This document shows positions 1 through 44,105 of a stretch of DNA of 64,000 bases, piece after piece. The translations under genes and the position numbers were made by a program. Origin of the DNA: a virus; the IMG/VR virus record IMGVR_UViG_3300001398_000004, positions 1 through 64,000 of that record; one strand, given 5' to 3'. The notes below the pieces were generated by a model. It did not search any database. It was not told the origin of the DNA and saw only the letters and a program-made list of their open reading frames with translations. How positions within the stretch are numbered: the first letter of the stretch is position 1; every line of letters begins with the position of its first letter.

Positions 1-3000
1 TCTGTCACCGACTCAGTCTTTGACGGGATCATCAATGTCTCGGTTTCGGACGCTGCCGGTGTCACAGACCAGACCCTAGTTGAGACTATTTTCGCTCAGG
101 ACTCTGTAGCGGTCGGGGACCTCACCAACACTTCCTTGGTCTATTCCGTAGCCTTGAGTGACACTGCCTCTCTATCAGACAGTTCGATTGCGGGTATAAT
201 TGAAAGCGCAGACCCGTTCGACGCGGTCAATATCGCAGACGCTGCCTCTACGGACATCTACTACATCAGGGTACTTCAGGACAACCTGGTAGTTTCTGAT
301 AGCGCCGCCCCCACCACCACTCGTGAAGTGTCCCTGAGTACAGACATCTTGGCAGTCTCTGACTCAGTGGCCGCTGAGCCAACTAGCGGGGTACTCGTTT
401 CGGACGTGGTCTCAGGGATCACGGACTCTTTGGCGGTCACGCGATTCGTCGATCGAAGCCCGGCCGATACGATCGTTATCCTAGACCAGGTCTTTATAGG
501 AGAGACTCGTGATGTAGTCATCGGTACGGATTCTGTTTTGGTATCGGACTTCAGTCTAGCCGAAGCGATCAATATCGATGTCGTGGTGACTGACACGATT
601 TTCGCAGTGCTCGACAGCATTGCTCGTGAAACCACTATTTTGCGGGTCTTCAACGATACAGTATCAGTTACAGACGCTGTATCCGCTGCTCGCGGTGGCT
701 TAGTTGATCGCGACCTCATCGACACGATTACTTTTGGGACTGACTCTGTCAAACAGATCCTATGGCCCGGCTTCGATGACGATCTAGATGTCTTTGATAT
801 TGTCCAGGTCGAGAAGATTGGGACCACGCTGGTGGCTGCTTCTGCGGACGGATTCAGCATCACGGTCCCTTTTCAGAGCGAGATCAGCTACGATCATACA
901 GGGGACCTAAGGAACTACCTCTTCCGACCATTGTTGGGTAGTCGTGGAGTGCCCTTCCAGATTGAAGGTGTAACTCCTGTAACAACGACCCTAGCTTCTG
1001 GGGGCTCCGGCACGCTGATCAGTGTGAATGACCCGAACTTCACTACGAATCTCTTTCAAGTGGGATCGGCAACCTTCAATGCCGGCACGGATGTAGGTAG
1101 GTACCTGGCGATCGGCAATGGACGGGTCCCTGGGGTCTACAAGATAGTTGGTGTGCCCAGCTCCACAAGGGTCCAGCTGGATCGCCCACTACAACTAGCG
1201 GATCCAGCTAACGGCACTTTTTCTTGGGTTTTCACCACAGCTATACAGGCTATAACTTTCAGGACTACTAACAAGGTCACCAATCAAGCAGGGTATACCC
1301 TCTCAATTCAAGGTTTGGTGACCAAAGCCGGAGTGCCTTTCGGACTTGCAGCCGATTTTATCACGACGGGTATTCTTGGACCTAAGCTCTTGGGGGTGAC
1401 ACTTTCTGATGAGGGTCAGCTTGTGGTCAATTACGACCAACCCATGCGAACTGACCGGGATATCGTGCTATCCTCCGAGTATACTGTGACCGGTCCGTCT
1501 AGTGTGTCGGTGCGCCAAGTGCAATCCGTTGGCCCATCCACTGTGGCCCTCGATTTGAATGGCCTGAGCAGTGGCTCTTACGCACTCACGATCAATATTG
1601 CGGGTACTCCAAAGGACGTGGCTGGCAATCCTCTAGAGCCTGCTTTCAATCAGGCAGTGTTCACTGGGTCAGTGCCGCTGACCAATCGGAGTATATTCAC
1701 GGATAAGGGCCCGATTTCAAAACCTGCCCTTTCGCTACAAACGGGTACAGGTGTTACGTTCAACAGCGGTGCAGAGGCCACTCTCACGGGTTCGACCCTG
1801 ACTCCTGATCTGATCAATGAATACTTGAATTTTAGCGGCACCCTTCACAACGACGGGACCTATAAGATTACTGGGGTGCTTTCTCCGACGAAGCTCCGCG
1901 TTCAAGCAAGTTTCGTGCTCCCCGATTCGGCGGGCTCTCCGGTCTGGGAGATTTTTGATCCCCGTAACGGTGAGATCGCTGATGACCCCACGGATGTGGG
2001 GGTCTTAGTGAACGGCACTCCTGTGACGCCAGTCGCTGTAGTGGGCCTATTGGGTCAGGTGGTGCTGCCCACAGCTCCCGAACCAAATGACGATGTTAAG
2101 GTCAACTACAGTTGGATGCCGAATCCTACGGTGGACTTCCGTCGATTGAACTCCAAGGAGTTTCGTCTCAATTCCTGGAACGCTGACACCTTGTACGGAA
2201 AGAGCACGAGCCAACACAGGTATCGCTACAACAACACATTGGTTCGGCCCAGTGAATACGCGCCCTTGGATATCCTGGCGACCCTCGATCAACCCGAGAC
2301 CCGAGACCTGTACTACAGGGCTTTCGAACGAGCCTACACGGCGACACTCAATGACCCGTCATCCCTGCTCCTCAACAGCCCAATCCACAAGATCGCTTTC
2401 CCATCAGCTCAAAGGACCATCAACGAGGCTTTCATCACCTATGAGGCCGAGGTTCTCCCTGAGGCTGCAACGCCTGCCTGGGTGAAGCACGGTGCCGGAC
2501 TGACATCAACATCGGCTGGTCTACTCACGGCCACCGATAACACCTCTGGGCCATATCCCGTAGGTCAGACTTTGTTTTGGACTCAAGAGCTGGATCTGAC
2601 CTTCCCGCATGCCTTTGCTCTTTCGTGGAGATTCTACGGAGCTAGCGTTACCGCATACAACGGGGTTTTCTCAGGCCTTGCTGTAGGCTACTCAGATGAC
2701 GCCGTGGCCTATGCGATCGGATTCATTGAGGTCTCTGGGGTCAAGAAGATCGGTTTCCTAAAGCGAGGCTTCGCTGACGACGCTTCGACGGTTGATTCGT
2801 GGATAGGCGGCCTAGACAACCTAAGTGTTTCCACGGGCTTGCCTGTGACTTTCGACTGGAGCGTTCTACACAGCTACCGTCTATTCCGTGATCGAACAGG
2901 CACAATCTCTCTGTACGTAGATGGAGACATCCTGGCTACCTTGCGGGTGACCCCGGATCAGGTCCCTTTCTTGGAAGAAGTCAACGCTCCTTTCAACGAG

Positions 3001-5550
3001 CTACAGGGAGTATTCTTCGGCTCAATCTCTAGGGAAGCTGAGAGTGTATCCGTCTGGGACTTCGTTCGCTATCTTCTTCTGCCAACCAACCCACTTCAGA
3101 CCAGTCCCTCGTCATTTGTCAGCTATGAGGGCAATATCCTACCAGAAGTGGCTAGCCGACCCTGGACTCCGATCGGTTTCCACGGAACAGAGTCCATCGT
3201 CAACAGTCAACTACTGCTTCTGGATTCCACATCAGCCTCAGACGGCTTCACTGCCTCTGAAGTGGGCGGCATAGGCGGTGACTACCGAGGTTTTGTTCGT
3301 CTAGAACCCCTGCTGTCCTCAGCCTCTGAGATTGTGGTGGACGTTGCTCCGCAGCTGCGGACCTACACCTACGGCGTAGACCCCTATGGGTTGACGGTAG
3401 CTGTAGACGACGGCAATCGTTTGATGCAGCTTGCTTTCTTCCCTAGCGCCGCAACCCCCAAGTTTAGTTACGGCGGACGATCTCTCCCGGAGTCTTTCTC
3501 ACCCTATGTCTGGAGTGCCATGGGTGGAGGCTCAGCCTCTATGCTGGGGCGAGTCCTGAGGATTTCAGATACGACCGTGGGTGATGGCAAGGTCTACTTT
3601 ATCGACGATCTCTCCCCTCCTGTTTCTGATAGCCGTGTAGTGTCTTCAGCTACCGACTACATTTTTGAGTTCCGTGTGCAGGTGGTAAGCTACACCACGG
3701 ATGGTGCGGGATTTGCTGGCGTATTCGGTCAAGTTGATGACGGTTCCAGAGCGCTAGGACTCATGTTCGAAGTCATAGCAGGGACTAAGTACGTAACCTT
3801 CAATTCTGAAGGAGTGCCCCTGGGCAGTTCAGCCAGATTCGCATTCAATTGGAATGACGGTCAACCCCACACCTATCGCTTCGTTAAGAGCACGGGTGGA
3901 GACCTAGTCACGCTGTTCATTGATGCTGTGTTCGTCGGCACGGTGGCATACCATTTGTTTACGGCGACCGGTGGCACGGCCACCGTCTCATTCGGATCGT
4001 CATCGCCTCTAAGTGCGGGGGCTCTTTCGCAGGTGGACTGGCACTACTGCAACGTCTGGCGAACCCGGACCGATTTGAAGCACTATGTGGGCCTCTGGAA
4101 GGGCTATGATGCAGACAGTCTGACTGGGTACCACCTCCCTCTCAAAACCTCAGGACGAGGCGCTCAAATCGTAGGCAATGCCTTAGGGGACAGCCTTGCT
4201 AGCTTCATTGCTGACGGGGTCACCTCTGGGGACACCCTAGTCATTGACGAGGGGCCCAATAAAGGCGTGTATGCCATTGCAGCCGTTTCGGGAGCTACGA
4301 CTCTGACCATCGTTGGAACGTGGCCCTTGAACCCCACACTGACTAGTTACCGCATTGTCAGCGAAGTCGACTGGACTGCCCAGCACAAGTACCGTTTGAT
4401 CAAGGACTCTTCGGGTTTGGTCAGCGTGCTCTACGAGAACGCTACGGATCCTATCATCCAGGTTGGGTACAATTCAATTGATTTGCCGGCCAGTGGCACG
4501 GGTCTTGTTCAGGCGGTGTCCAATGGGATTCCGTCGATTGTATTCGGTTCCTTCAACTCGGAGAACCTTGTCCAATCCTCTTGGGATTTCGTACGATACG
4601 GCATCTCTAGGTCGGCGACCGAGATCACTGCGGCCCCACACCACCAATTCCTCAATCAGAGGAATGTCATGGAGTCCCCAGAGCGCTTGACGACTCTGCT
4701 CTCCCACACACTTACAGACTTCTCCTCAAGCTCTACGGGTATTGTCCCGAAGAAAGCCCCGGAATTCCTCACTAATACGAATCTCCCTGCCTATACCCGG
4801 CTCAATGAGGGGACTCCTTTGGTGCCTAGCACGCAGGATTACCAGGTCAGGAGCCCAACTCCCGTCAAGGAGTTCGTGTCAGCTCTGAACATGCCGCAAG
4901 ACGTGCTCAATACAGCCAGCTTCACCCTCAATGACGGATCTGTTAGATACCGCCTCATCGTACCCGAGGGGGTCCTGTACTCCGCCTTGGATGTGATCGA
5001 AGAGTCTTCTGGGGAAGAGGCTCTGATTACTCCATTTGGAGATGAGGACGGCCATAGCTTTAGCGGATTCAACTACCAGAAGGAAGTCTGCCTTGAATAC
5101 TCTGCCAATGTTCTCCCTGAGAACGATATTGCGGCCCCAACTCCCTGGATTCGTCAAAGCGATAACCCAGGCCAAGTTACGGCCTCAGTGGCTGGTGGTA
5201 TTTTGACATACAGCACCACGGGCTCGGCCACGGTCTACAAGAACAACACGACGTTGCCGGATGCCCCGGGTCTACAGACAGAGGTTAAGTTCCGCCTTAA
5301 GCTGTTGGCCGACGCCACCTTAGGCACGGGGGACACTCAGGTACGCTTTGGTCTTTCGGCTCCTGGACTAACTTTGGCCCTGGCTTTTGTGACCACGCCT
5401 CATGCTGAGAGGTACGTCATGGCTGTTGACCTAAATAACGGAAATAATCTGGGGTCGGTTAGCTTCGACTTCCTCGATGGGGCCTACCATACCTACAGAA
5501 TCGTTAGGGATCCTGGGGCGGGCGTGGTTCGGGTATCCATCGACTCATGA
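1..5550 (+). CDS. Giant tail/adhesin-type protein with LamG-like modules (5' end outside window, 3' truncated)
   Basis: The reading frame is open from base 1, so the true start lies upstream and the visible part is about 1849 residues. The first ~260 residues are degenerate Asp/Ser/Val repeats (DSV-VSD pattern, about 37-40 residues each). Next come an Ig-like segment resembling SbsA/Big_5 domains (around nt 1380-1665) and at least four modules opening with a YE-x-N-x-LPE-type motif (near nt 2431, 3115, 3461 and 5090). These modules contain HSYRLFRD and YVDG-type strands typical of concanavalin/LamG-like sandwiches. The last module stops at VSIDS, exactly where its siblings read on into a VDG strand, so about a third of it is missing. 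A role in host-surface binding is inferred. The truncation lies beside an HNH remnant. Confidence 0.8.
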   Translation, partial: SVTDSVFDGIINVSVSDAAGVTDQTLVETIFAQDSVAVGDLTNTSLVYSVALSDTASLSDSSIAGIIESADPFDAVNIADAASTDIYYIRVLQDNLVVSDSAAPTTTREVSLSTDILAVSDSVAAEPTSGVLVSDVVSGITDSLAVTRFVDRSPADTIVILDQVFIGETRDVVIGTDSVLVSDFSLAEAINIDVVVTDTIFAVLDSIARETTILRVFNDTVSVTDAVSAARGGLVDRDLIDTITFGTDSVKQILWPGFDDDLDVFDIVQVEKIGTTLVAASADGFSITVPFQSEISYDHTGDLRNYLFRPLLGSRGVPFQIEGVTPVTTTLASGGSGTLISVNDPNFTTNLFQVGSATFNAGTDVGRYLAIGNGRVPGVYKIVGVPSSTRVQLDRPLQLADPANGTFSWVFTTAIQAITFRTTNKVTNQAGYTLSIQGLVTKAGVPFGLAADFITTGILGPKLLGVTLSDEGQLVVNYDQPMRTDRDIVLSSEYTVTGPSSVSVRQVQSVGPSTVALDLNGLSSGSYALTINIAGTPKDVAGNPLEPAFNQAVFTGSVPLTNRSIFTDKGPISKPALSLQTGTGVTFNSGAEATLTGSTLTPDLINEYLNFSGTLHNDGTYKITGVLSPTKLRVQASFVLPDSAGSPVWEIFDPRNGEIADDPTDVGVLVNGTPVTPVAVVGLLGQVVLPTAPEPNDDVKVNYSWMPNPTVDFRRLNSKEFRLNSWNADTLYGKSTSQHRYRYNNTLVRPSEYAPLDILATLDQPETRDLYYRAFERAYTATLNDPSSLLLNSPIHKIAFPSAQRTINEAFITYEAEVLPEAATPAWVKHGAGLTSTSAGLLTATDNTSGPYPVGQTLFWTQELDLTFPHAFALSWRFYGASVTAYNGVFSGLAVGYSDDAVAYAIGFIEVSGVKKIGFLKRGFADDASTVDSWIGGLDNLSVSTGLPVTFDWSVLHSYRLFRDRTGTISLYVDGDILATLRVTPDQVPFLEEVNAPFNELQGVFFGSISREAESVSVWDFVRYLLLPTNPLQTSPSSFVSYEGNILPEVASRPWTPIGFHGTESIVNSQLLLLDSTSASDGFTASEVGGIGGDYRGFVRLEPLLSSASEIVVDVAPQLRTYTYGVDPYGLTVAVDDGNRLMQLAFFPSAATPKFSYGGRSLPESFSPYVWSAMGGGSASMLGRVLRISDTTVGDGKVYFIDDLSPPVSDSRVVSSATDYIFEFRVQVVSYTTDGAGFAGVFGQVDDGSRALGLMFEVIAGTKYVTFNSEGVPLGSSARFAFNWNDGQPHTYRFVKSTGGDLVTLFIDAVFVGTVAYHLFTATGGTATVSFGSSSPLSAGALSQVDWHYCNVWRTRTDLKHYVGLWKGYDADSLTGYHLPLKTSGRGAQIVGNALGDSLASFIADGVTSGDTLVIDEGPNKGVYAIAAVSGATTLTIVGTWPLNPTLTSYRIVSEVDWTAQHKYRLIKDSSGLVSVLYENATDPIIQVGYNSIDLPASGTGLVQAVSNGIPSIVFGSFNSENLVQSSWDFVRYGISRSATEITAAPHHQFLNQRNVMESPERLTTLLSHTLTDFSSSSTGIVPKKAPEFLTNTNLPAYTRLNEGTPLVPSTQDYQVRSPTPVKEFVSALNMPQDVLNTASFTLNDGSVRYRLIVPEGVLYSALDVIEESSGEEALITPFGDEDGHSFSGFNYQKEVCLEYSANVLPENDIAAPTPWIRQSDNPGQVTASVAGGILTYSTTGSATVYKNNTTLPDAPGLQTEVKFRLKLLADATLGTGDTQVRFGLSAPGLTLALAFVTTPHAERYVMAVDLNNGNNLGSVSFDFLDGAYHTYRIVRDPGAGVVRVSIDS

Positions 5551-5563
5551 AATCCTGGACTAA

Positions 5564-5665
5564 ATGTGGTTAACCGCAGAAGCAGAGATACTCGCTGAAG
5601 CTGCGAAATGCGAAGTTATTTGTGCCAACTGTCATAGGGCTAGGACTTACGCCCGTAAGCAATAG
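5564..5665 (+). pseudogene. C-terminal remnant of an HNH homing endonuclease
   Basis: A 33-codon frame from ATG 5564 to TAG 5663-5665 ends in AKCEVICANCHRARTYARKQ. This is the characteristic C-terminus of phage/bacterial HNH endonucleases, with the second zinc-binding CxxCH and the catalytic His region. The N-terminal half with the other CxxC and HH residues is absent, and the frame differs from the preceding gene. It lies immediately after the truncated end of the giant tail gene, which suggests one deletion removed the 3' end of that gene and the 5' part of the endonuclease. It is unlikely to be functional. A tiny expressed peptide cannot be excluded, but no Shine-Dalgarno sequence is evident. 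Confidence 0.75.
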
Positions 5666-5673
5666 GACCCGTC

Positions 5674-7404
5674 ATGACCGCCACTGCTCTAATCCAGTTA
5701 ACGCAAGCTACCAACATTGGTCCGAACGGCCAGTCCCTGATTGGCGTTGTCGGGACCGCTGTGACGCTTTCGAATACGGACAACACGGGTGTGGCTTCCT
5801 GGCAAATAGACCTTGTCTACGCGGATCCCTCTAGTGCCCTAGTCCCAGCCACACCCTATGCTTTCAACAATTCTAGTGCCACACCTACCCTAACCTTCAC
5901 TCCTGATGTGTCGGGTTGCTATCGCCTCGTCCTAAAGGTGTGGGGTGTGGCCAATCGTGTGGGTACTCCTACGGACTTGGACATCCGTATCTTTGGGGTA
6001 AAGGAAGCCAACGGAACTCTGGTACCTCCGGCTCAGGTATTCCCTCAGCCTTTGCCTGTGCCCGCCTCTGGTAAGCCGGGGGCCAAGCCATCGGAGTACA
6101 ACTTCGATGGCGTCCCGAACGGCGCTGGCTGGGCGGGGAATGGGTCCAATGATGGATTGTTGAACAACACTCTCAGGATAGTTGATGCGATCAACACCAA
6201 AAGCACACACACTCTATACGTGGACGTGGACACAACGGTGCCGTTCGCTCTTCAAACAGGCAGTAAGGGTCTACCGTTTTCAAGCATTGACGACGCCTTT
6301 TCACTGATAGGCTCAAACTCTGGCACGGCTACTAATTGGTATGTCATGGTCGGGCCTGGACAGTACCCCTCATCGGGTACCACGATCAATGGCGGAAATG
6401 GTACGATCTGTAGGAACATCTGGGTTGAGGGCTCTAAGGGAACTGTCCTTGGTAGTGGGGGGTCTAACACTTTCTACTGGTCGTCCTCAGAGGCCGCTAA
6501 CAACACACTGTCTTTCAGCAACCTGACCCTCAACATCAAGCTAGATGCGTTTGCTAGTACGACTGAGTCGGGTGTGACGCACACCATCGAATTCCACAAT
6601 GTCATTGCTACTGCTGGCACCATTCACACAGACTTCACAAGTGACCCCGTCCTAATTTTGGCCTATGGGACGATGGCTGCTAACCCGACCAACACATACA
6701 TCAGCACTACTTGTCAGTTCGGAGAGATTAGGGCCACGACTGGCAATATTATTTTGAGAGGTTCCAGCTTCAACAGTATCGAAACTGCCACTGATACTGG
6801 GGAGATCATCTGCCAGGACTGCTATTGCCCGTCTACTACCACATCGGATGGCATCTATTCCCACAATATCACATTGGGGAACACTCTGTTCGCGGGTACG
6901 ATCGGAGCTACTGTCCAGATAAACACAGGATTCACCACATTCGGTGCGCTGACTATAGACAGCCCGACTTTTGCATCAATCGTCGCGCACAACGTAGCCG
7001 TCAACAATGGCTTCAACAATATCCGTAGCTTGTACGGAGATGAGCTGGCCATTGAGGGCGCCACACTTCAGATCACCTCAACGGGCACGGTCCCGTTAGT
7101 GACCCTAGATATTAGGGGCCTGCCCTCTGAGGTCGCCATTGCCGTTCGCGCTGTTGTGGCTGCTTTCTCCACAGGGTACACGAGCATCTATGAGTGGGAG
7201 GCAATATTCCTGAAAACCAGCGGTAGCGTGTCTGTAGGAGGTCAAGGAGCCGGGAACTCCGGCTCCAATGGAAAGTACGGTAATAACGCCTCCACCCTGA
7301 ACTTCTCTTCGAATTCTAACAACATTGTCCTGAGTGAGTTTTGCGCCAGTTCTCAGAACTTCTCCTGGCACACGGTATTGTACTTCTCGTTCTCTCACTC
7401 TTAA
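5674..7404 (+). CDS. Tail fibre/tailspike-like protein with predicted beta-helix region
   Basis: 576 residues starting at ATG 5674, nine bases after the HNH remnant. The N-terminal ~120 residues are a small beta domain. After a Pro/Gly-rich linker (around residues 125-165) comes a segment reading like a pectate-lyase-type right-handed beta-helix: LYVDVDTTVPFALQ, then KGLPFSSIDDAF, VMVGPGQY, and many short NNTLSFSNLTL-type strands. The opening resembles tail proteins that begin with a numeric data-series style fold (T-G-S-KGLPFSSI). No catalytic site is recognisable. The neighbours are tail proteins, so a receptor-binding or structural role is inferred. Confidence 0.7.
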   Translation: MTATALIQLTQATNIGPNGQSLIGVVGTAVTLSNTDNTGVASWQIDLVYADPSSALVPATPYAFNNSSATPTLTFTPDVSGCYRLVLKVWGVANRVGTPTDLDIRIFGVKEANGTLVPPAQVFPQPLPVPASGKPGAKPSEYNFDGVPNGAGWAGNGSNDGLLNNTLRIVDAINTKSTHTLYVDVDTTVPFALQTGSKGLPFSSIDDAFSLIGSNSGTATNWYVMVGPGQYPSSGTTINGGNGTICRNIWVEGSKGTVLGSGGSNTFYWSSSEAANNTLSFSNLTLNIKLDAFASTTESGVTHTIEFHNVIATAGTIHTDFTSDPVLILAYGTMAANPTNTYISTTCQFGEIRATTGNIILRGSSFNSIETATDTGEIICQDCYCPSTTTSDGIYSHNITLGNTLFAGTIGATVQINTGFTTFGALTIDSPTFASIVAHNVAVNNGFNNIRSLYGDELAIEGATLQITSTGTVPLVTLDIRGLPSEVAIAVRAVVAAFSTGYTSIYEWEAIFLKTSGSVSVGGQGAGNSGSNGKYGNNASTLNFSSNSNNIVLSEFCASSQNFSWHTVLYFSFSHS

Positions 7405-7487
7405 CCAGGGGCTGCCTAAATTTAGATGCTGACGCTTGCTAAATACCAGACTGTCGAACAGCCTCCAGGCCTTCAAATGGGGCGCTT

Positions 7488-10400
7488 GTGAGCGGCTTTG
7501 CAGGTTCCGGATGGGGTGAAGGGCCCTGGGGCGGAAGTACGCTCGATGATGTCAGTAGTGGCAGCACAATCGACGTAGTCAGTGGGGACACGCTTACGAT
7601 CACAGACTCCTACAGCGTCCCTCTTCGTGTACAGGACGCCGTAGGGACAACGAAATTCTCGGTAAGGGTAGATTTCTCTCAAGACCTCGACATTACATAC
7701 CCAGCGCTGTCTCTGACTTCGAACTACACCATCCCTGGGCTGACAGTTCTAAGTGTCACGATCCTAAGCCTCTCCCAGGTGCTACTGGCGACAACTCCAG
7801 CCCAGCTACCGATCATTTATACGGTCACCGTCGGGGATGCTGTCTCCCTCAATGGGGATATCCTAGGTGTGGATGACCATGCCGACTTCAATGGCTTCAT
7901 TCTAATCCCCACTTTCTTGGCAGGGGCTGAATCTTCGACGAAGGTAGAACTGATCTTCTCCACGGCGATGACGGTTAATTCCGCCCTCACGTCGACCGCC
8001 AGCTACAAGATTCAGGCAACAGACGGGGATGCCATCATTCCCATCCTGTCAGCTGCTGTTTCGGGCCCTTTGCCTCGTCAAAGGGTTACCCTTATATTGG
8101 GTACTCCCCTGACTTCGAAACAGTACTACGCGGTAACTGTCGCAAATACCGTGACTGACGTCTTGGGCTTAAACGTAGTCCCCAACATGTACATCATGCA
8201 ATGGGCTGATATGACTCAGCCTGTTTTCATTGCACCTCTTGAAATACCAGTCAAGGACTTTTCAGGGGAAATACATGGGGGTCTTCTAGGCAATCCCGAT
8301 GGTCAGGTCTTCTTCTCGCCTGCGTTTGAGACGGTCGGAGCGACCTCGACGATCGAGCTTGAGCAGCTATCGGTCTGTACCAAAGCTTACGACGAATACA
8401 CGATTCCCGCTCCCCCTGACCCCATCCCGTTGATGACCTTCTCTCCTGGGTCTCAGTCTGTCATTGGGCCTAGCACAGTTCTGTGGGCTCCTGCGTGGCG
8501 GCTAGGTCAGGTTCAGATGACCTTGGGACGCAACGAGGTGGACCAGATACAGTCAGCTAATGATGGGCCTGTCTATGGAACTCTGGTAGAGACCATCGAT
8601 ATCACTAGGGCCTCGTTCTTGAATGATTCGCGTTGGAGCACCTTCCCCGGCTCTATCGCATTTAGGACTGCAGACAACAAGACTAGCATAGGCCCAGGGC
8701 CGACTTCGTTACGAACTCTGGATTGGCCAAAGATTGTCATTGGCGATGAGATTGACATCGACGACGATGTCAATCTAAGAAGTGGTCTAGACCCACTGCT
8801 CAATGACGTAATCTCTGTCTCAGACGTGGTAACCACAGGTGTCCTAGCTGTTGATATCGAAGACGTTGTCAATGTGTCGGATGTGCTCACACCTACCACC
8901 CAATACGTTAGGTTCGCGAACGACAGCGTTTTCACAACGGACGTTGCTGAGACCGCGATCCAAACTTACAATATCATTGCTTCGGACGCAATAGACATTT
9001 CTTCGGACTCGATCAGCCGCACTACGTTCCAGGTCTTTAGTGTGGCCACCAACGACACAGTATCGACTTCGGACTCGATCAGCCTCACTACGTCCCGGGT
9101 CTTTAGTGTGGTTGCCAACGACACAGTATCGACTTCGGACTCGATCACGATCGGATCTGTCATTGACATATTCATGTTGGATTCGGTTTCGATCACGGAC
9201 TCGATCACTATCGTATCCCACGGAATCATTGACAAGTCAGGGTCGGATTCGATTTCGATCACAGATTCAACGATCAGCGACAACGGACTCGTATCCCAAG
9301 TGTTGCAGGTCTCCGGCAACAAGCTGGTGAATTCGCAGGGGCAGACGGTGATCCTGCGCGGCTTCTCATTCTCGTCAACCGAGACTAGGCCGGTGCAGAC
9401 CTCGACATTCTACGAGCCAATCGCTCCGACGATTGCAGGATTGGGGGCGCGTGCAGGTGCGAACTTTATGCGTATCCCGCTCAACCAAGCCGCATGGCTT
9501 GGCACGGTCACGAACGCTGGGATCTCCGGCGCACCGTACCGCAGTGCTATAGTAAATCTCGTAGCTCAGGTGCGTGCATATGGGCTGTATGCTTTGGTCG
9601 ATCTGCACTGGAACGACCCGCAACCCACAGCCTCGTTTACGCCTAATGCTGCCGCTCAACAGGTTATGGCTAACCGGGACGCGACTGGTGGCACCACGGA
9701 CTCGCGAGCATTCTGGACCTCGGTCGCCAACACGTTCAAGTCTGATACAGGTGTCATCTTTGATCTCTACAACGAGCCCCATGATATTACGTGGGCGCAG
9801 TGGCTCAGTGGTGGAGCGACGCAAACGAACTACCTGAGCGATGCCTCAGGCACTCTAGCGTTCTCATGGACGACCGCGGGTATGCAGGAACTGCTGAACG
9901 CGGTTCGCGCTACGGGCGCTACGAACGTCTGTGTCGCCAATGGCATCGGCTGGGCCAACGCGCTAGGTCAAGACGAATACGACACTACTGGCAACCCTTC
10001 GCTAGGCTGGCTCTCGCACAAACCAACAGACGCGACAGGCAATCTAATGGCCGGCTGCCATCTCTATTCAGGGCAGCCTTATTCAAGCATACCAGCTACA
10101 GCAGATCAACCCTTCTCAACAACAGCGGCTGCGGCAGTGCTTACCGTCGCTGCCTCCTATCCTGTCTTGATTGGCGAGTACGGCGACAAGGTCGGCTCGC
10201 TCATTCCCTACGCCCCAGCGTTGCTTGAATGGGCGGAGCGCAACGGCCTCTCGCACGCGGCTTGGACATTTAACAACTTTGGTGATCCAGAGAACGTCTT
10301 GCTGACGGCCTACAACGCTAGCACGCAGCCATACGAAGTCGTGCCGAATGCTGGTGAAGGTGCCTTCGTGCTTCCGTACATCCGAGCCCGCCGAAGAATC

Positions 10401-11516
10401 ACAATTCCAAATACGAATATCAGTGCAGGCCAGCCGATCTTCGCCAGTTCGAGCACCGGGTCAGCAGTTACCAGAATCACTCAGAGCAACTGGGATGGTA
10501 ACGATTGGAGATCTTCTGGATATCCTGCATCAGTATCGCTAGATCTTTCAGCAGTCACTGCGTCGAAGCGCACAAATATCGCGCTTGCAATGTCCAATTC
10601 AAATTACCAAGGTGATTCATCTACTTTCGTTTCCCCAACATATAGCGCTTGGAGCGACTACAAAATTCAAGGCAATGCAGGAGCTGGAGGCGGGTCGGTG
10701 CCTGGCTCGGGCTGGGTAGACATTTTGTCTGTGACCGGTAATAAACAGAGATCACGTTCGCATCGGCTATTATTCGCGGCCGCGGTCGGCGGCACTCCGT
10801 ACAACTGGCTTCGTGTACTGTTTACTGCTGGAAATAGCCAGAATGACCCTGGCAATTCGGACGCCTCGCTGAATTTGCTCGATGTGAGCGATGTGAGCGC
10901 GGGCAACTATAGCAGCTGGTTCATGATGGGTGATTCCATCCTCAGCCAGACCGTGCGCGCAGACGGCACGGGATTTGGGGCAGCGTACAAATCACGGTAC
11001 TCCGGATTTCCAGCATTATTCGAAATCAACGGTGCGCCAGGATACAAGGCATCCGATTTTGCTTCTGGAGGCTCATACAACACTCAATGGCTCGCCTATC
11101 TGAACGGGACCGCATGTCAAAACGTATACATCGCTTTCGGGACGAATGATGCAAGTCCGGGTGTTGCTGCGACATTCGACTCGAACATGCGAGAACTGAT
11201 CAACAACTGTCTTAGCCACGGTCTTATACCCTGGGTTCCTACGATTCCGTGGTCTACAAATAGCACACGCAATACTAACGCCACTCCGCTAAACGCCAAG
11301 ATCGCTCAGATCTACACCGACTATGGTGGAGTCGTATTCAAAGGGCCTGACTGGTGGACGTTCTACCAATCCGGAATTCTTACATCGGACGAAATTCACC
11401 CAGTCGATCATTATCCTGAAGTAGCGGCAGAGCTTGCGCGCGTACTTGGGTTGCGCGCGCTTCCAGGTGCGAGTGCTGATAATTGGACGCCTCCCACCAT
11501 TGATTTGAGCGCCTAA
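7488..11516 (+). CDS. Tail fibre with GH5 glycoside hydrolase and SGNH esterase domains
   Basis: 1342 residues, GTG start at 7488. Residues 1-430 are structural and include an SbsA-like Ig segment. Residues ~430-600 are DSISxSDS repeats like those of the gene at 1-5550. Residues ~603-945 match a GH5 (cellulase-like) TIM barrel: ILRGFSF near the start, LVDLHWNDP, acid/base Glu763 in LYNEP, nucleophile Glu897 in IGEYGD, and a terminal AAWTFNNF strand. A beta-sandwich linker (~950-1140) leads to an SGNH/GDSL hydrolase with Ser1150 (GDSIL), Asn1220 (GTNDAS) and Asp1301/His1304 (DEIHP). All catalytic residues are present. It probably cleaves and de-esterifies a host-surface or biofilm polysaccharide. 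The substrate is not determinable. Base usage changes near nt 9290, compatible with domain acquisition. Confidence 0.88.
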   Translation: MSGFAGSGWGEGPWGGSTLDDVSSGSTIDVVSGDTLTITDSYSVPLRVQDAVGTTKFSVRVDFSQDLDITYPALSLTSNYTIPGLTVLSVTILSLSQVLLATTPAQLPIIYTVTVGDAVSLNGDILGVDDHADFNGFILIPTFLAGAESSTKVELIFSTAMTVNSALTSTASYKIQATDGDAIIPILSAAVSGPLPRQRVTLILGTPLTSKQYYAVTVANTVTDVLGLNVVPNMYIMQWADMTQPVFIAPLEIPVKDFSGEIHGGLLGNPDGQVFFSPAFETVGATSTIELEQLSVCTKAYDEYTIPAPPDPIPLMTFSPGSQSVIGPSTVLWAPAWRLGQVQMTLGRNEVDQIQSANDGPVYGTLVETIDITRASFLNDSRWSTFPGSIAFRTADNKTSIGPGPTSLRTLDWPKIVIGDEIDIDDDVNLRSGLDPLLNDVISVSDVVTTGVLAVDIEDVVNVSDVLTPTTQYVRFANDSVFTTDVAETAIQTYNIIASDAIDISSDSISRTTFQVFSVATNDTVSTSDSISLTTSRVFSVVANDTVSTSDSITIGSVIDIFMLDSVSITDSITIVSHGIIDKSGSDSISITDSTISDNGLVSQVLQVSGNKLVNSQGQTVILRGFSFSSTETRPVQTSTFYEPIAPTIAGLGARAGANFMRIPLNQAAWLGTVTNAGISGAPYRSAIVNLVAQVRAYGLYALVDLHWNDPQPTASFTPNAAAQQVMANRDATGGTTDSRAFWTSVANTFKSDTGVIFDLYNEPHDITWAQWLSGGATQTNYLSDASGTLAFSWTTAGMQELLNAVRATGATNVCVANGIGWANALGQDEYDTTGNPSLGWLSHKPTDATGNLMAGCHLYSGQPYSSIPATADQPFSTTAAAAVLTVAASYPVLIGEYGDKVGSLIPYAPALLEWAERNGLSHAAWTFNNFGDPENVLLTAYNASTQPYEVVPNAGEGAFVLPYIRARRRITIPNTNISAGQPIFASSSTGSAVTRITQSNWDGNDWRSSGYPASVSLDLSAVTASKRTNIALAMSNSNYQGDSSTFVSPTYSAWSDYKIQGNAGAGGGSVPGSGWVDILSVTGNKQRSRSHRLLFAAAVGGTPYNWLRVLFTAGNSQNDPGNSDASLNLLDVSDVSAGNYSSWFMMGDSILSQTVRADGTGFGAAYKSRYSGFPALFEINGAPGYKASDFASGGSYNTQWLAYLNGTACQNVYIAFGTNDASPGVAATFDSNMRELINNCLSHGLIPWVPTIPWSTNSTRNTNATPLNAKIAQIYTDYGGVVFKGPDWWTFYQSGILTSDEIHPVDHYPEVAAELARVLGLRALPGASADNWTPPTIDLSA
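9001..9160 (+). repeat. 66-bp tandem repeat encoding 22-residue DSI repeats
   Basis: Nearly identical units begin near 9001, 9067 and 9133 (CTTCGGACTCGATCA at each start). The 66-bp period equals 22 codons, so copy-number change keeps the frame. The repeats lie in the spacer between the structural head of the fibre protein and its GH5 domain, so the array would set the reach of the enzyme from the virion. Only about two and a third copies are present. Confidence 0.8.
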
Positions 11517-11605: not shown

Positions 11606-12262
11606 ATGAGCATGAAGATGACCGAGCAGACCCCCAAGCCGCGGAACCAGGTATCCTCAGCCTTCGCTGTGCGTCCCGCCGACAACTTTGGCGAAAAAGG
11701 CTATTACATTCGCGGGGATGTCTTCTTCAAGATGCACGATGGAAAGACCGGAGAACTCCAATGGGAGTCGGAACTCCGGAATCTTGTGGTCATGGACGCC
11801 TCAATTCTCATCGCCCGGCTGATGAAGGACAACCAGGAGGTCCCCCATGGCGTGTTTGCCCTGGCTGTGGGCTCCGGAGACAGCGGTTGGAACGTGATGT
11901 CTCCTCCAGCTCCGACCAGCACCCAAAGGGCGTTGTATTCGGAAATAACGCGAAAGACTTTCTCGGACACTCAATTCGTGGATGGCAACGGTGTTCCAGT
12001 AGCCTACCCCACCAAAGTTGTCGACTTCACTACGAATTTCACAGAATCCGAAGCGGTCGGGCCATTGGTCGAAATGGGCCTCCTCGGCGGCAACGTCAGC
12101 ACTAACCTCTCTGTCAGGGATCCGGTCACCCCTCCAAACGGAACCTACGATTCCACAGTCGACTTGACTCAATTTGACACTCTGGTCAACTATCTGACTT
12201 TTCCAGTAGTCAACAAACCAGCTACATCGACCTTTCAGATCGTGTGGAGGTTGAGTTTCTGA
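11606..12262 (+). CDS. Virion-associated protein, unknown
   Basis: 218 residues from ATG 11606, preceded by GAGAGGATATGAGC. The sequence is globular with an N-terminal YYIRGDVFFKMHDGKTGEL segment and beta-rich remainder (FALAVGSGDSGWN, YLTFPVV, FQIVWRLSF). It has no signal peptide or membrane segment. Its final TGA overlaps the ATG of the next structural gene, showing translational coupling inside the tail cluster. The pattern is seen in phage baseplate/tail accessory proteins, but no named family is recognised. Confidence 0.6.
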   Translation: MSMKMTEQTPKPRNQVSSAFAVRPADNFGEKGYYIRGDVFFKMHDGKTGELQWESELRNLVVMDASILIARLMKDNQEVPHGVFALAVGSGDSGWNVMSPPAPTSTQRALYSEITRKTFSDTQFVDGNGVPVAYPTKVVDFTTNFTESEAVGPLVEMGLLGGNVSTNLSVRDPVTPPNGTYDSTVDLTQFDTLVNYLTFPVVNKPATSTFQIVWRLSF

Positions 12263-14871
12263 TGTCTGCCAAAAATTACGGTACAGGGACTTCTGGCTAC
12301 TTGGATCCGGCAGAGCGCTCTTGGGAGACGACTGTCTACCAAGCTAGTAAGCCCATACTGGACAAAGAGCTGAACCTACTCCAGGACGCCGAGCAGGATG
12401 CCACTCGTAAGATCCTTCGCAGCACTTTTCCTTCGGGATGGGTCAGCGACGACTACTTGGCATCTTCAGCTTCGGCCCTGTTCGCAGGACTGACCAATAC
12501 CTCAAACATCCTCCAGCTCAATTCTTTGGGGGCATACGTCAACGGGTGGTGGGTCAATGTCACGGATACGGGGAACAACACCGGTCTGAACGTTCTTAAT
12601 CTGGGGACGGCCCCCTCAGGAGCGGGTGCTTCGAGGACGGATTTGGTTATCCTTGAAGTTTGGCGTCGGTTGATTCCGGCTTCGCCTTCGACTCTGGGCA
12701 AGAGCCCAGCAGGTCGTATTTGGAAGAACGGTAACGTCAAGATCGCGTCCTCGGACGACATGACCTTGAACTATGCCGATGACATCTTGGATGGAGCGGT
12801 TGGGTCTGAAACTACCAAGCGTGTCCAGATCCAGTATCGCCTTAGGGTCATTCATGGCGTGGATCTATTCACGTATCCTGCTGGGATCAGCGACCCTACA
12901 GTAGTGGCTATGTCAGTCCCTCCGAATGCGGCCACTCCTGACGGATCGTCTACGGTTTTCACTTACGTGAATCAATCCTCTGTAGGTGACCCAGGCCTTT
13001 GGTTAGCAGGAGACGGGGACCCCTCGAATACTTTGGGTACTGTCGATGGGCGAATGTTTGCATTGCCCTTGGCAGCTATCTTCCGTAGGAATTCCACGGC
13101 TTTTGCTAGGAACACCAATCAGAATGGTGGCATCGCCTTCGGTGGATCGTCGGATCGTCCGGACGGGTTGTTCTACGACATCATCAGTGCCCGGGATGTC
13201 TTGGATATGCGCTCGGGGTCTTCACCCACGGGCTGGGATCTCACAGAAGTCCTCCAGAAGAACGTGAACCTCCTGTTCGACAATGTGAACCAGACGGAGA
13301 TTGGTTCGACGTTGTTCGGCGGTGGGATGAACGGCCACACGATCATTCAGGCGGATGAGATCGGTGTCTCCAATGCCAACGGTGGCGACGGCGTCATCAC
13401 AGGTGATACTCCTGGAGCCGACTTCATTGGTGAGTTCGACTCTGTTCGTCGAAGCTTCTCCGACAGGGGTATCTACGAGACGGTGGTACTCAAGTACCTA
13501 CCTTCGGGTGGTTCGTGGGCTACCAATGAGGTCGTCACGATCAGTCCGTCGAATCTGCCCATCTGGCCGTACGCAAACACCAATTGGGCAGCCCACGCAC
13601 CCTCTAACATCTCGTTCGTCGAGATCACAAGGGTTGCGTTTTTGGGTGAAGCCGGGGGCTCCAACAGCACGGACATCACCCACTCTGGGTGGTTCTCCTC
13701 AGGTTTGGGGACTACTCCACAGGGGGCAGTCACCGTACAGTTGACAGGGGCCGGCGCGGCTGCCGGTGGCTCGTCACCAATCTTCATTTGGATCACGGTA
13801 GCCTACCCTTCGGGGGTAGGCCTGTCCAAGACCCCGACAACCATCCTAGGGAATAATGGTACCGCTGGTACGGTACAAGGCGTGTATATCAACAATCCTG
13901 GGCAATTGCCCGCGACTACGCCTATATACTACAACGCTCTGACCACTCCAGTCTTCACTCAGGCCAATCGTGAAGTGCAGCTGACCTACCAGACGGTGGC
14001 TCACACTAGGAACTACTACTCCACTGGAGCAACAACAACACTGTTCATTCCAGAGCGTATCGACAGCAGTCAGCCGGTGACCGTCACGATCAATTCGGTC
14101 CCTTATGGTGGATCCCAAGTAATCTCTGGAGACGGCTATTTCATCACGGTTGCGGGTGGGGCAGTCACAGGTGGTCAGACGATTGTGATCACTTACCAAT
14201 CGATTCGCCCTATGCCTCAGAACAATGAACAATTGACGGTGTATTATGAGGCCAGAGTACCTCAAACCGTTCGGGACGCTCTACTGGGCACTTCTCTCAG
14301 TGTCGTTCCCAGGAGTGTTGCTCAACACCTCTACGTTCTGACAGCAGGTAGCGGTACAGACGGTCAGGCCTATCCGTTCCCATATCAGTACGTTCAGGCA
14401 GGTGGTGTATACCCCACGTCTGGCGGATCCTTTGCAGGGGACCATGAATTGGACGGTGATCTTCGACTGTCGACGACAACTTTGACTGCGGATACAGGTT
14501 TCATGCAGCTTTCAGTGCAGGTTCCCGTAACCCCAGCCCCAGAGGCAGTAACTTTTGTGCGCTCCCCAGGAGCCAAGGATATCGAAGGGCGCACATTCTT
14601 CAATGCGTCAGGTACTCCGTACTACTTCACCGGCATTGCTCAGACTTTGAGCGATCCCAAGAAGCACAAGAATATCCTAGCCATGCTGTGTGAACTATCT
14701 GCCGACACCTTGTTAGGCCCCAAGGGTCAGTTGGTCCTAGTGCTACTTAGCCGTTGGGCCATTTTCGACGATTCGAACTCGGTGGGCTTCGTCACCAACC
14801 TCGCCAATAATTCCACAACTGCAAGTGTCTACAGGCTCAAGGGCAACCTGTTGAGCAACAGGAGAAGCTAA
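12262..14871 (+). CDS. Large virion structural protein (paralogue of the gene at 17364)
   Basis: 869 residues. ATG 12262 is preferred over an upstream in-frame GTG at 12244 because GGAGG lies at a suitable distance and the ATG overlaps the previous stop. The N-terminus (SWETTVYQASKPILDKELN) and several blocks (ILEVWRRLIPASPST, RVQIQYRLRV, GDPGLWLAGDG, RPDGLF) align with the 1351-residue protein encoded at 17364-21416, so the two are clear paralogues. The C-terminus ends with a strand-rich LVLVLLSRWAIFDDSN domain, also shared. The role is probably baseplate or tail structure. It overlaps the next gene by one base. Confidence 0.7.
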   Translation: MSAKNYGTGTSGYLDPAERSWETTVYQASKPILDKELNLLQDAEQDATRKILRSTFPSGWVSDDYLASSASALFAGLTNTSNILQLNSLGAYVNGWWVNVTDTGNNTGLNVLNLGTAPSGAGASRTDLVILEVWRRLIPASPSTLGKSPAGRIWKNGNVKIASSDDMTLNYADDILDGAVGSETTKRVQIQYRLRVIHGVDLFTYPAGISDPTVVAMSVPPNAATPDGSSTVFTYVNQSSVGDPGLWLAGDGDPSNTLGTVDGRMFALPLAAIFRRNSTAFARNTNQNGGIAFGGSSDRPDGLFYDIISARDVLDMRSGSSPTGWDLTEVLQKNVNLLFDNVNQTEIGSTLFGGGMNGHTIIQADEIGVSNANGGDGVITGDTPGADFIGEFDSVRRSFSDRGIYETVVLKYLPSGGSWATNEVVTISPSNLPIWPYANTNWAAHAPSNISFVEITRVAFLGEAGGSNSTDITHSGWFSSGLGTTPQGAVTVQLTGAGAAAGGSSPIFIWITVAYPSGVGLSKTPTTILGNNGTAGTVQGVYINNPGQLPATTPIYYNALTTPVFTQANREVQLTYQTVAHTRNYYSTGATTTLFIPERIDSSQPVTVTINSVPYGGSQVISGDGYFITVAGGAVTGGQTIVITYQSIRPMPQNNEQLTVYYEARVPQTVRDALLGTSLSVVPRSVAQHLYVLTAGSGTDGQAYPFPYQYVQAGGVYPTSGGSFAGDHELDGDLRLSTTTLTADTGFMQLSVQVPVTPAPEAVTFVRSPGAKDIEGRTFFNASGTPYYFTGIAQTLSDPKKHKNILAMLCELSADTLLGPKGQLVLVLLSRWAIFDDSNSVGFVTNLANNSTTASVYRLKGNLLSNRRS

Positions 14872-23556: not shown

Positions 23557-26500
23557 ATGCCCGACGATATCAAGCTCAGTCCCGAACAGCAGAAACTCTA
23601 TGAGGAGCTGAAAGCCGTCCGTGCTCGCACAGATGTGAAGCTGCCGCCCTCTCCCATTCTTCGTCAGGAAATAGCAGGGCTGGACGGTGTGCTCCAGCCT
23701 TTCACCTTCCGCTATTACCAAGTACAGGGCATCTACCACATGCTTCGCCTGAAGCGTATGGTGCTAGGGGACAGCACTGGCTTGGGCAAGTGTACGACCC
23801 TTGATACTAGGCTCATTACGGACAGGGGGCAGATCTCCTTGGCTGCTTTGAAGCCCGAAGGGGACCTAGTCGAGGGGTTCTATGACCTCCCTTTCCCTGT
23901 TAATGTTTGGACTGGCCTAGAAACTGCCCCTGTCCGTCGGTTCTATTGGGGCGGCATCAAGCCCACGGTTAGGGTGACTACTAGAAACGGATTCGTATTG
24001 GAGGGCAGCCGAGTACATCCTGTGCTCATAAGAAGTGCCACTGGAGAGGTGTTTTCCAAACTACCTGCCCTCAATGAGGGGGACTTTGTTTGCATCGATC
24101 GCAATGAGGCGTACTTCCCAGAGACAGAACCAGAACTCAAAGCATTGGACAAGGAGGTCAGTCCTAACAGGGGGTTCAAGTACCCTGAGCGACTCACTCC
24201 GGACTTAGCTGCACTATTGGGTTGGCACATAGCTGAAGGTTGTAGACACCCAACATCCGTGAATGTGGCTCAGTACATCGACTCCAACCCTGAATGTCAT
24301 GCGGAGATAGAGCGCCTGTTTCAAGTTGTGTTCGGGTGGTTCAACTTGAATAAAAGGGACCTGGAGAAGGTTAACGTCTGCTCTCAGGACATACGTCGAT
24401 TCCTGATTGGGTGTGGTTTAGCTGAAGTGCTGGCGGCTGGTAAAGAGGTCCCTGAGTGTGTCCTTAGGGGATCCAGGGAGTCCGTCCGTCGGTTTCTTAG
24501 TGCATACATGGAGGCCGAGGGGTCAGTGGCCTCTTGTGGGTTCGAGGTCAGCTCGGCTTCTGAGAAGCTGATTAAGCAGGTGCAAGGCCTACTGTTACGT
24601 TTTGGGGTGGTATCAACTAGGTCCCCAAAACACGTAAAAGGCTATGAGCACACCTATTGGCGCCTGTCCTTTTTTTCGAATGACGCCAGGACATTCCAGG
24701 AGAAGATCGGGCTGATCTCTACCCGAAAACGGGAGGCCTTCCGAGACACTCTACAGAAGGACTCAAATCCAAATAAGGATGTAATCCCTCACTCTATCGA
24801 TCATGTGGGCGCCCTAAAAGCACTGCTACTTAAGGCTACTTCTAGGAGTGGGGCTAACGCTAATCGTAAGGGTTCTGGTATCAAGCAATTTGGACACTCT
24901 TTCCAATCCACTTTTACGCATATCCTAACGGGCGTCCGAGACCCAACTTATCAATGGCTGGACAAGCTCCTGGCTGTTGCTAGTGAGTTGGGCTTAGAAA
25001 AAGAGCCAGAATATCAAGAGGTGCAGAGGATTAGGTCCAACAACTACTTCTACGACCCTGTAGTCAAAATAGAACAGAGTGAAGCAGAGGTGGCTGACCT
25101 AGAGATTGAGCACCATTCCCACTGCTTCTCTGGGAACGGCTTCATCAATCACAATACGATCGAGACAATTGGTACTCTTGCATACCTCTGGGAGAAGCGC
25201 CCAGAGACCAAGGTCATCGTCGTGGCCCCCAAGTCGGCTATCCGTCAGTGGTCTGATGAAATAGAACGCTTTACTAAGGGTGTGAAGGTCTACATCGCCA
25301 CGGCCCCCAAAGAGAAGGGAGAGTCCCCCATTGAGGCGAGAGAACGCATCTACGAGGCTTGGGCTAACGCTCCCTCGGGGCCTAACGACCCGAAGGCAGT
25401 CCTCATTCTGAATTACGCCTTGTTGATCAGAGACTGGAATCACGGGGGTTTCCAGCCCCTAAAACCCAACGGGCAACCGGACCCGAAGGCCCCGGTTTTG
25501 CCAGGGTTGTTGGACAAAATAACCAAGAAGGTGGCCGAGAATCTGACTGTCATCTTCGATGAAGCCACTGCTTTCAAGTCAATGCGAACGAAGACTTGGG
25601 AGGTCGTTCGCTTCCTCTCGGATCGATCGAACCGTGTCTATGCGTTGACAGCCACCCTTCTCAAGAACAACCTCATGGAGGGCTACTGCATCTACAAGGC
25701 CATCCTACCGACGCTCTTTGGAGCCAAGACGAAGTTCATGGAGGACTACACCTTCTATGAGTTGAAGTCCGTGGGTAGGGCCAAAGTGCCAGTAATCAAG
25801 GGGTACAAGAACCTGGACCACTTCAAGGCGGCCATCGACCTGTACTTCCTAGGTCGACAGAAGCACGTCGTGTCCAAGGAACTGCCTGTACTGACCACAC
25901 GAGAAATAACCTGCGAGCTGAATGAAGCCGAGGTGCTCAAGTACCGTGAGGCTCTGACAGGGATTCTAGAACTAGGGGACGGCCAGGTCAAAGAGTTCGA
26001 GGAGACGAAGGCCCTCACGAGCCTCATCTACTGCCAACAGGTGGTCAACTCGCTCTCCCTCCTCAAGTTCAATGAGGGTGACGAAGTCGGCGGGTTCGAC
26101 CTAGACCTGAAAGTCGCGAAAATAGGCAACCTTTGCAGTAAAGAGCAGGCCCTATTGGACCTGCTCACCGAGGACTTGGAGGGTGACAAGGTCATCGTCT
26201 ATACTCGTTTTGAAAGCCTCGTGGCGAGATTGCAGGAGATCCTCAAGAAGAATGGGATCAGGAGCGCTCGAATCACAGGCAAAGAGAAGGACACGGATCG
26301 CCAGAAGGCTAAGGCAGCCTTCCAAGACCTGAAGTCAGATGTCAAGGTCATCTTCATCACAGCCGCTGGCAGCGAGGCCATCAACCTCCAAGCAGCCGCC
26401 GGCATGATTTTCTACGACCAGCCGTGGTCGTGGGGTGACTATGTCCAGTGTCTAGATATGGACACTGAGGTCTTAACCAAAAGGGGGTTCTTGAAACGGG

Positions 26501-43150: not shown

Positions 43151-43174
43151 AAAGGGGTCTTGTATGACCCCTTT
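43151..43174 (+). promoter_or_regulatory. Hairpin sequestering the start region of the homing endonuclease
   Basis: AAAGGGGTC (43151-43159), loop TTGTAT, GACCCCTTT (43166-43174): a perfect 9-bp stem. The left arm contains the AAAGGGG ribosome site and the ATG (43164-43166) straddles the loop and right arm. Followed by T, it could also act as a terminator for the upstream gene. Confidence 0.85.
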
Positions 43175-44105
43175 TGGACGGATCTACCTGGTGACGAACC
43201 TGACCAACGGAAAGCGCTATGTTGGCCAAACTACGAAGAGCGTCCGCCAGCGCTGGGTCCAACATAAATCTGAGGCAAGACGCGGTGGGACTATGCCTTT
43301 CCATAGAGCAATTCGGAAATACGGGCCGGATCGCTTTGAGGTGACCGTACTAGAAGAATGCTTCGATCTGAATTCGTTGAATTCAGCGGAGGCTCGCTGG
43401 ATCTCGGTCCTTAAATCTAATATCGATGAAGGCTCCGGCTACAACTGTACCAGTGGTGGAGAGGGGTGCATTGTATCAGAGGCCACTAGGAAGCTTGCTT
43501 CGCTTCAACAGAAGCGTCGTGCTGAAAATCCCGTTCATCGTGCCTGGCTGACTGAAATATCTAGGGCTTTCAATCAAAGTGTTGAGGGACGAGCTATACA
43601 TTCAGAGATAGCACGTCAGGTGTTCTCCGACCCGGTAGTCAGAAAACGTATGTCTGAGGGTCAACTGAACAGACTTTGGACTCCTGAACAAAGGGCTCAA
43701 CGACGTTCTATTGGCAAAGAAACTGGACTCCGCCGCTGGTCTAAGCATAGGGAAGAGCAGGGAGGGTGGATGCCAGAGGATGAGACCAGCTCTTTCATCC
43801 AAGGCTTAACCGTTAAGGAGTACGTTGTAAAGAGACGGAGCAACCCCAGGCTACCTAAGCAAAGTGCCTTTCCGGCAGTGTATGGGAAGACCTTTCAAGA
43901 AGTACGTGATGGCTTTAGGCGAAGTTTGTTCGTCACAGAGTCGGAGTTGAAGCTGGCTATTACAGGCATGGCTCAGACAGAGTATGTGAGACTCAAGAAA
44001 GAAAAGAGACTAGACACAAGGTATCCTCATACAGTCAGTTTCCCGAAAGTATACGGCAAGACCTACAAAGAAATACGAGACGGATCTCGAAAGGCGGGCT
44101 CGTGA
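43164..44105 (+). CDS. GIY-YIG homing endonuclease
   Basis: 313 residues. The N-terminal nuclease has RIYLVTN and RYVGQT (GIY-YIG strands), R-QRWVQHK, and a later Glu in SAEARWISV, then NCTSGGEG. The central part is basic. The C-terminus has two similar units, AFPAVYGKTFQEVRDGFRR and SFPKVYGKTYKEIRDGSRK, probably DNA-binding modules. It overlaps the next gene by four bases, so it inserted without harming it. Translation looks restrained by a hairpin over its start region, as known for several T4 homing endonucleases. Confidence 0.9.
   Translation: MTPFGRIYLVTNLTNGKRYVGQTTKSVRQRWVQHKSEARRGGTMPFHRAIRKYGPDRFEVTVLEECFDLNSLNSAEARWISVLKSNIDEGSGYNCTSGGEGCIVSEATRKLASLQQKRRAENPVHRAWLTEISRAFNQSVEGRAIHSEIARQVFSDPVVRKRMSEGQLNRLWTPEQRAQRRSIGKETGLRRWSKHREEQGGWMPEDETSSFIQGLTVKEYVVKRRSNPRLPKQSAFPAVYGKTFQEVRDGFRRSLFVTESELKLAITGMAQTEYVRLKKEKRLDTRYPHTVSFPKVYGKTYKEIRDGSRKAGS

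Follow-up and report, generated by a model that had tools for sequence, protein, structure and literature searches.

A jumbo-type phage tail-region protein with an apparently gained C-terminal module of predicted GH5 glucanase and SGNH esterase domains

The first 64,000 nucleotides of the 82.8-kb IMG/VR virus record IMGVR_UViG_3300001398_000004 (hereafter the window) contain a gene at 7488-11516 (+ strand, as are all features given below between 136 and 14871) whose product is a 1342-residue tail-region protein. The open reading frame begins with GTG and is intact with no internal stop, and the protein consists of an N-terminal structural part, a series of DSI repeats, a GH5 domain, a beta-sandwich-like domain and an SGNH hydrolase domain. 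As judged from sequence, this one protein carries two predicted carbohydrate-active domains, each with a complete set of catalytic residues. The initial annotation had proposed a GH5 domain with both catalytic glutamates and an SGNH hydrolase with all catalytic blocks, and the residues it named are all at the expected positions: E763 (YNEPH), E897 (IGEYG), S1150 (GDSI), N1220 (GTND), and D1301 and H1304 (DEIH). Pfam searches, which could have placed the two regions in non-enzymatic families, return PF00150 and PF13472 respectively; an NCBIfam search gave no match.

The GH5 catalytic domain corresponds to residues 615-931 (9330-10280) and is identified by Pfam, an AlphaFold2 model and Foldseek. 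PF00150 matches with an E value of 8.3e-29 and 101.4 bits (curated cut-off 23.5 bits), covering profile positions 2-271 of 272, and all eight classical active-site positions are kept (R662, H707, N762, E763, H858, Y860, E897 and W926), with conservation of at least 90% in a 50-row alignment. E763, within the NEP motif, is the predicted acid/base (9774-9776) and E897 the predicted nucleophile (10176-10178). The barrel is resolved in an AlphaFold2 model of residues 600-1342, with predicted local distance difference test (pLDDT) values mostly of 80-98, and the top Foldseek matches to this barrel model are GH5 endo-beta-1,4-glucanases (best E 6e-15), with target template modelling scores of 0.61-0.68 among the first ranks, consistent with a TIM barrel fold. 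The closest cellular relatives are found in soil Chloroflexota, Actinomycetota, Dormiibacterota, Myxococcota and others, at 32-44% identity; relatives were retrieved only by a profile search with a three-row GH5 alignment, and single-sequence pattern searches of viral contigs and genome contigs yielded none. GH5 had been described as uncommon in tailspikes, and this holds as rarity in phages, in that a tblastn search of 50,697 phage records with the GH5 part gave no match at 1e-5. At a relaxed threshold (E up to 10) the matches are mainly to Erwinia phage cellulases, with E values from 5e-3 to about 4 and spanning half the domain or less.

The SGNH/GDSL hydrolase domain (residues 1147-1305; 10926-11402) matches PF13472 at E 1.5e-6 and 29.3 bits within the whole protein (below the 32.9-bit cut-off), and at E 1.1e-7 and 33.0 bits as an isolated domain (just above it). 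The SGNH blocks are all present: block I is GDSI (S1150), block II NGAPG, block III GTND (N1220) and block V DEIH (D1301/H1304). Between the GH5 and SGNH domains is a ~170-residue beta-rich, beta-sandwich-like domain (residues ~966-1135; 10383-10892) that the initial annotation overlooked; it has no Pfam match, its strands are visible in a low-confidence model, and it is co-conserved with SGNH in a second viral protein (L035, below), such that it forms part of an SGNH module. Structure prediction, proposed earlier as a check of both enzymes, upheld the GH5 part by modelling its barrel; AlphaFold2 did not resolve the SGNH module within the 600-1342 model or alone (two sequences, mean pLDDT 33), because only a single homologue was available. 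Tblastn of the SGNH part against the same phage records gave no match at 1e-5 and no credible relative at E up to 10, and a search for the module in six bacterial genomes and 297 further Acidobacteriota (L090 phylum) genomes, run without a positive control, found nothing. Membership of family CE2 is unsupported, as a PDB search allowing E up to 10 returned no CE2 chain; a distant relation is possible.

The N-terminal structural part (residues 1-430; 7488-8777) is Ig-like with a weak Big_5 match and is conserved in jumbo-phage relatives; residues 26-429 are 66% identical in G001/L014, and identity is 28-43% in L015, L017, L018 and G004. It is followed by the DSI repeat linker (residues 433-598; 8784-9281), proposed earlier to tether the domains; the repeats are real, with a significant 22-residue period (autocorrelation 0.55 versus at most 0.24 across 200 shuffles), and similar repeats recur in window gene 136-5550 and in relatives. 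The closest relative, contig G001 (308.9 kb), has the same gene order, and its homologue is a 438-residue protein that ends where the window repeats begin. Neither PF00150 nor PF13472 has a match anywhere on this contig, and no enzyme domain adjoins the homologous genes in L015, L017, L018 and G004. Because these homologues lack it, the repeat-GH5-SGNH part reads as an added C-terminal module, unless these relatives have all lost it.

The flanks of the gene are those of the relative. The conserved downstream tail-region gene at 11606-12262 (phrog_5417, with a weak match to a baseplate wedge / tail fibre network), 81% identical in L014, fixes where the gained module ends on its 3′ side. Upstream, a tail-region protein with DSI repeats at its N-terminus (136-5550; the 5′ end is truncated by the contig start) is 68% identical in L014. 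The exact protein is present on one contig only in the sets searched, as expected if assembly had fused a tail gene with a host glucanase gene into one reading frame; the colinearity of both flanks with G001, at the identities given, leads us to reject this, and since the frame also continues intact through repeats common to other genes of the same virus into a GH5 part of ordinary composition, a chimera is hardly credible. At the next gene boundary there is an extra 576-residue gene (5674-7404) that the closest relative lacks at the colinear position; it has no family match and by eye looks like a beta-helix tailspike.

The wider neighbourhood (genes 136-21416) matches tail regions in the jumbo-phage contigs G001, G004 (406.7 kb) and L015-L018. 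The gene at 12244-14871 codes for a tail fibre-like protein with a homologue annotated as a tail fiber protein in Tunturi_5, an isolated 309-kb myovirus of Tunturiibacter (PMC11924767), where it lies among tape-measure, lytic-tail and baseplate genes. The window gene thus sits in a cluster colinear with the tail genes of related contigs, and its presumed virion-anchoring N-terminus is conserved. The initial annotation had called the product a tail fibre; because of this colinearity and the annotation of the Tunturi_5 neighbour, a tail-region protein is accepted, while a fibre specifically is not, and the product could be another tail or baseplate component. No host is proposed, as neighbouring genes are related to phages of Acidobacteriota, to phages of Bacillus and to metagenomic phages without an assigned host.

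A second case was recovered by the GH5-alignment profile search of viral contigs. L035 (IMGVR_UViG_3300014904_000032) encodes a 1157-residue protein (5368-8841) in a tail array with neck and baseplate-type neighbours, and a second IMG/VR record (3300015368_000213) shares 12,753 bases around the gene without a difference. Its GH5 and its module of beta-sandwich plus SGNH are both homologous to those of the window protein, and it too belongs to the tail of a phage. In BLASTP the GH5 pieces are 35% and 46% identical and the SGNH module is 26% identical (E 7e-12), with complete SGNH catalytic blocks. The two proteins differ in that the SGNH module of L035 is nested in the barrel, after the NEP loop, so that its GH5 is split (residues 227-379 and from about 905), whereas the window domains are in tandem; L035 also has an fn3-like N-terminus and a different virus backbone. 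A further beta-type insertion precedes the second glutamate in L035, and the gene that follows (8865-11015) encodes a GHL15 glycosidase-like domain (E 4e-6). As the same homologous pair is present in two unrelated virus backbones and in two topologies, its recurrence argues for a functional pairing; this is the strongest argument for a depolymerase acting with a deacylase, a pairing which the initial annotation had suggested from the window protein and which this case strengthens.

Composition bears on how the pair was assembled. The GH5 part has a GC content at third codon positions (GC3) of 0.64, ordinary for this phage, and GC3 drops to 0.49-0.55 in the SGNH module, whose codon-usage score is lower than in any 200-codon window taken from eight other genes of the phage. 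The earlier claim of a compositional shift at the domain border thus stands for the border of the SGNH module, between it and GH5, and is not supported for the GH5 border. The break is a modest signal, and because the codon usage of the SGNH module and not that of GH5 is atypical, it hints that the SGNH module was acquired separately. Module shuffling is frequent in tail proteins. Both points would suit a chance joining of domains with separate targets, GH5 acting on one glycan and SGNH on lipopolysaccharide, teichoic or membrane esters, although the pairing of a homologous SGNH module with a homologous GH5 in L035, there nested inside the barrel, speaks against it and such a joining is quite unlikely.

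In other viral contigs, GH5 proteins without signal peptides adjoin neck, minor-tail or tail genes in L027 (5998-7503) and L037 (5323-7068) and a collagen-like fibre gene in L038 (2364-3728), which may mean that soil-type phages carry GH5 in the virion more often than isolates do. A single clade of virion-type GH5 domains is not asserted, as the one supported side of the tree (98/96) includes one bacterial row, and the tree has long branches and an arbitrary root. A stand-alone GH5 with a lipobox-like signal and a long serine/threonine linker is found in the jumbo-phage contig G004 (L013 and L034; IMGVR_UViG_3300044680_000280), and it is apparently a secreted glucanase and not a virion protein. 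Soil viruses are also known to encode GH5 genes, one with demonstrated endomannanase activity (PMC6786970). These examples favour a role resembling that of auxiliary metabolic genes, in which the enzymes serve carbon acquisition or lysis and not virion entry; however, the window protein, unlike the signal-peptide-type GH5 of G004, begins with a domain conserved among the tail clusters of its relatives and is itself encoded inside a tail-gene cluster, and such a role is very unlikely here.

The window protein is thus probably a tail-region protein of a jumbo-type phage with a gained, detachable enzyme module that acts as a receptor-degrading depolymerase plus deacylase. From its domains, catalytic residues, tail-cluster context, module gain relative to the closest relative and the recurrence of the pair, we infer that the protein is part of the virion, is active and has a role in adsorption, and likewise what its substrate is and in which order the domains act. 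The N-terminal part would anchor the protein in the tail with the 22-residue repeats as a spacer; a beta-linked polysaccharide on the host surface or in its matrix would lose its ester groups, probably O-acetyl, to SGNH, and the beta-glucanase-type GH5 would then cut the backbone so exposed, by which the virion could bind and clear a path through the polysaccharide layer to the cell. The sequential attack put forward in the initial annotation, and its cellulose-like EPS or capsule as the target, are speculative. Several points weigh against this. The GH5 is at most 44% identical to the relatives found and lies on a long tree branch, because of which its specificity is not transferable; the tail location is based on gene neighbourhood and homology and not on proteomics; SGNH scores are close to the Pfam cut-off and its structure model did not resolve; and the two architectures might share an ancestor and not be independent. 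Alternatively, the domains could mainly bind, in an adhesion or receptor-binding tail protein that holds polysaccharide (possibly plant-derived, so that virions stick to the litter that hosts inhabit) and contributes little or no catalysis to infection. The GH5 is of a family of soil-bacterial secreted glucanases, and the Clostridium thermocellum esterase CtCE2 binds cellulose via its esterase active site (PMC2661963), but the catalytic residues of both domains are all kept in the window protein, as are the SGNH ones in L035, and a mainly binding role is unlikely.

Elsewhere in the window, an SNF2-type helicase gene (23557-27753) is interrupted by an intein that carries a LAGLIDADG endonuclease (Pfam E 6e-20 and 2e-6), and a homing-endonuclease gene is located at 43164-44105 (phrog_314, E 3e-27).

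Phage depolymerases usually cut polysaccharide or strip its decorations, and this one tail protein appears able to do both. A wider proposal, more doubtful and offered tentatively, is that a recurrent virion-borne glucanase-esterase machine in unrelated soil-type phages, with at least two chain topologies, allows entry to hosts that are shielded by an acylated beta-glucan or mannan (e.g. acetylated cellulose), which would be the first receptor. Two unrelated phages with differently wired domains would then suggest that acylated beta-glucans of environmental bacteria have been overlooked as a phage receptor, and the enzyme pair could be tried on acetylated polysaccharides, modified bacterial cellulose among them.

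Each half of the pair is already known on phage proteins, and a limited search of open-licence papers found no description of GH5 and SGNH united in one virion protein, or of the two topologies; within that search the union and its two-topology recurrence are the new part. For GH5, the closest known system is gp095 of Erwinia phage S6, which degrades the cellulose model substrate carboxymethylcellulose, cellulose being the first receptor; like the window protein it is encoded in a tail-associated variable gene region and has N-terminal non-catalytic domains and a C-terminal GH5 (PMC9544554). Unlike the window protein, the Erwinia phage cellulases have no reported SGNH domain, belong to unrelated phage backbones and share only the weak tblastn similarity noted above. 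For SGNH, tail proteins of this type are confirmed esterases (PMC13123978), and gp63.1 of coliphage G7C, Acinetobacter phage Aristophanes and Klebsiella prophage receptor-binding proteins have tail SGNH hydrolases that remove O-acetyl groups, as predicted here (PMC13123978, PMC11058221); these have no GH5 alongside, and the window SGNH module has no credible sequence match in the phage collection. CtCel5C-CE2 of C. thermocellum (CAZy CE2) has the pair in one chain, a GH5 followed by a beta-sandwich (jelly roll) and an SGNH esterase (PMC2661963). It differs in that it is a secreted enzyme of the cellulosome and has a dockerin separating the modules; the window protein has no sequence match to solved CE2 chains, and its SGNH keeps the DxxH Asp, of which CtCE2 makes no use (PMC9487903). 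By analogy with S6 gp095, the SGNH tail esterases and CtCel5C-CE2, deacylation and backbone cleavage at adsorption are a likely role for the window protein.

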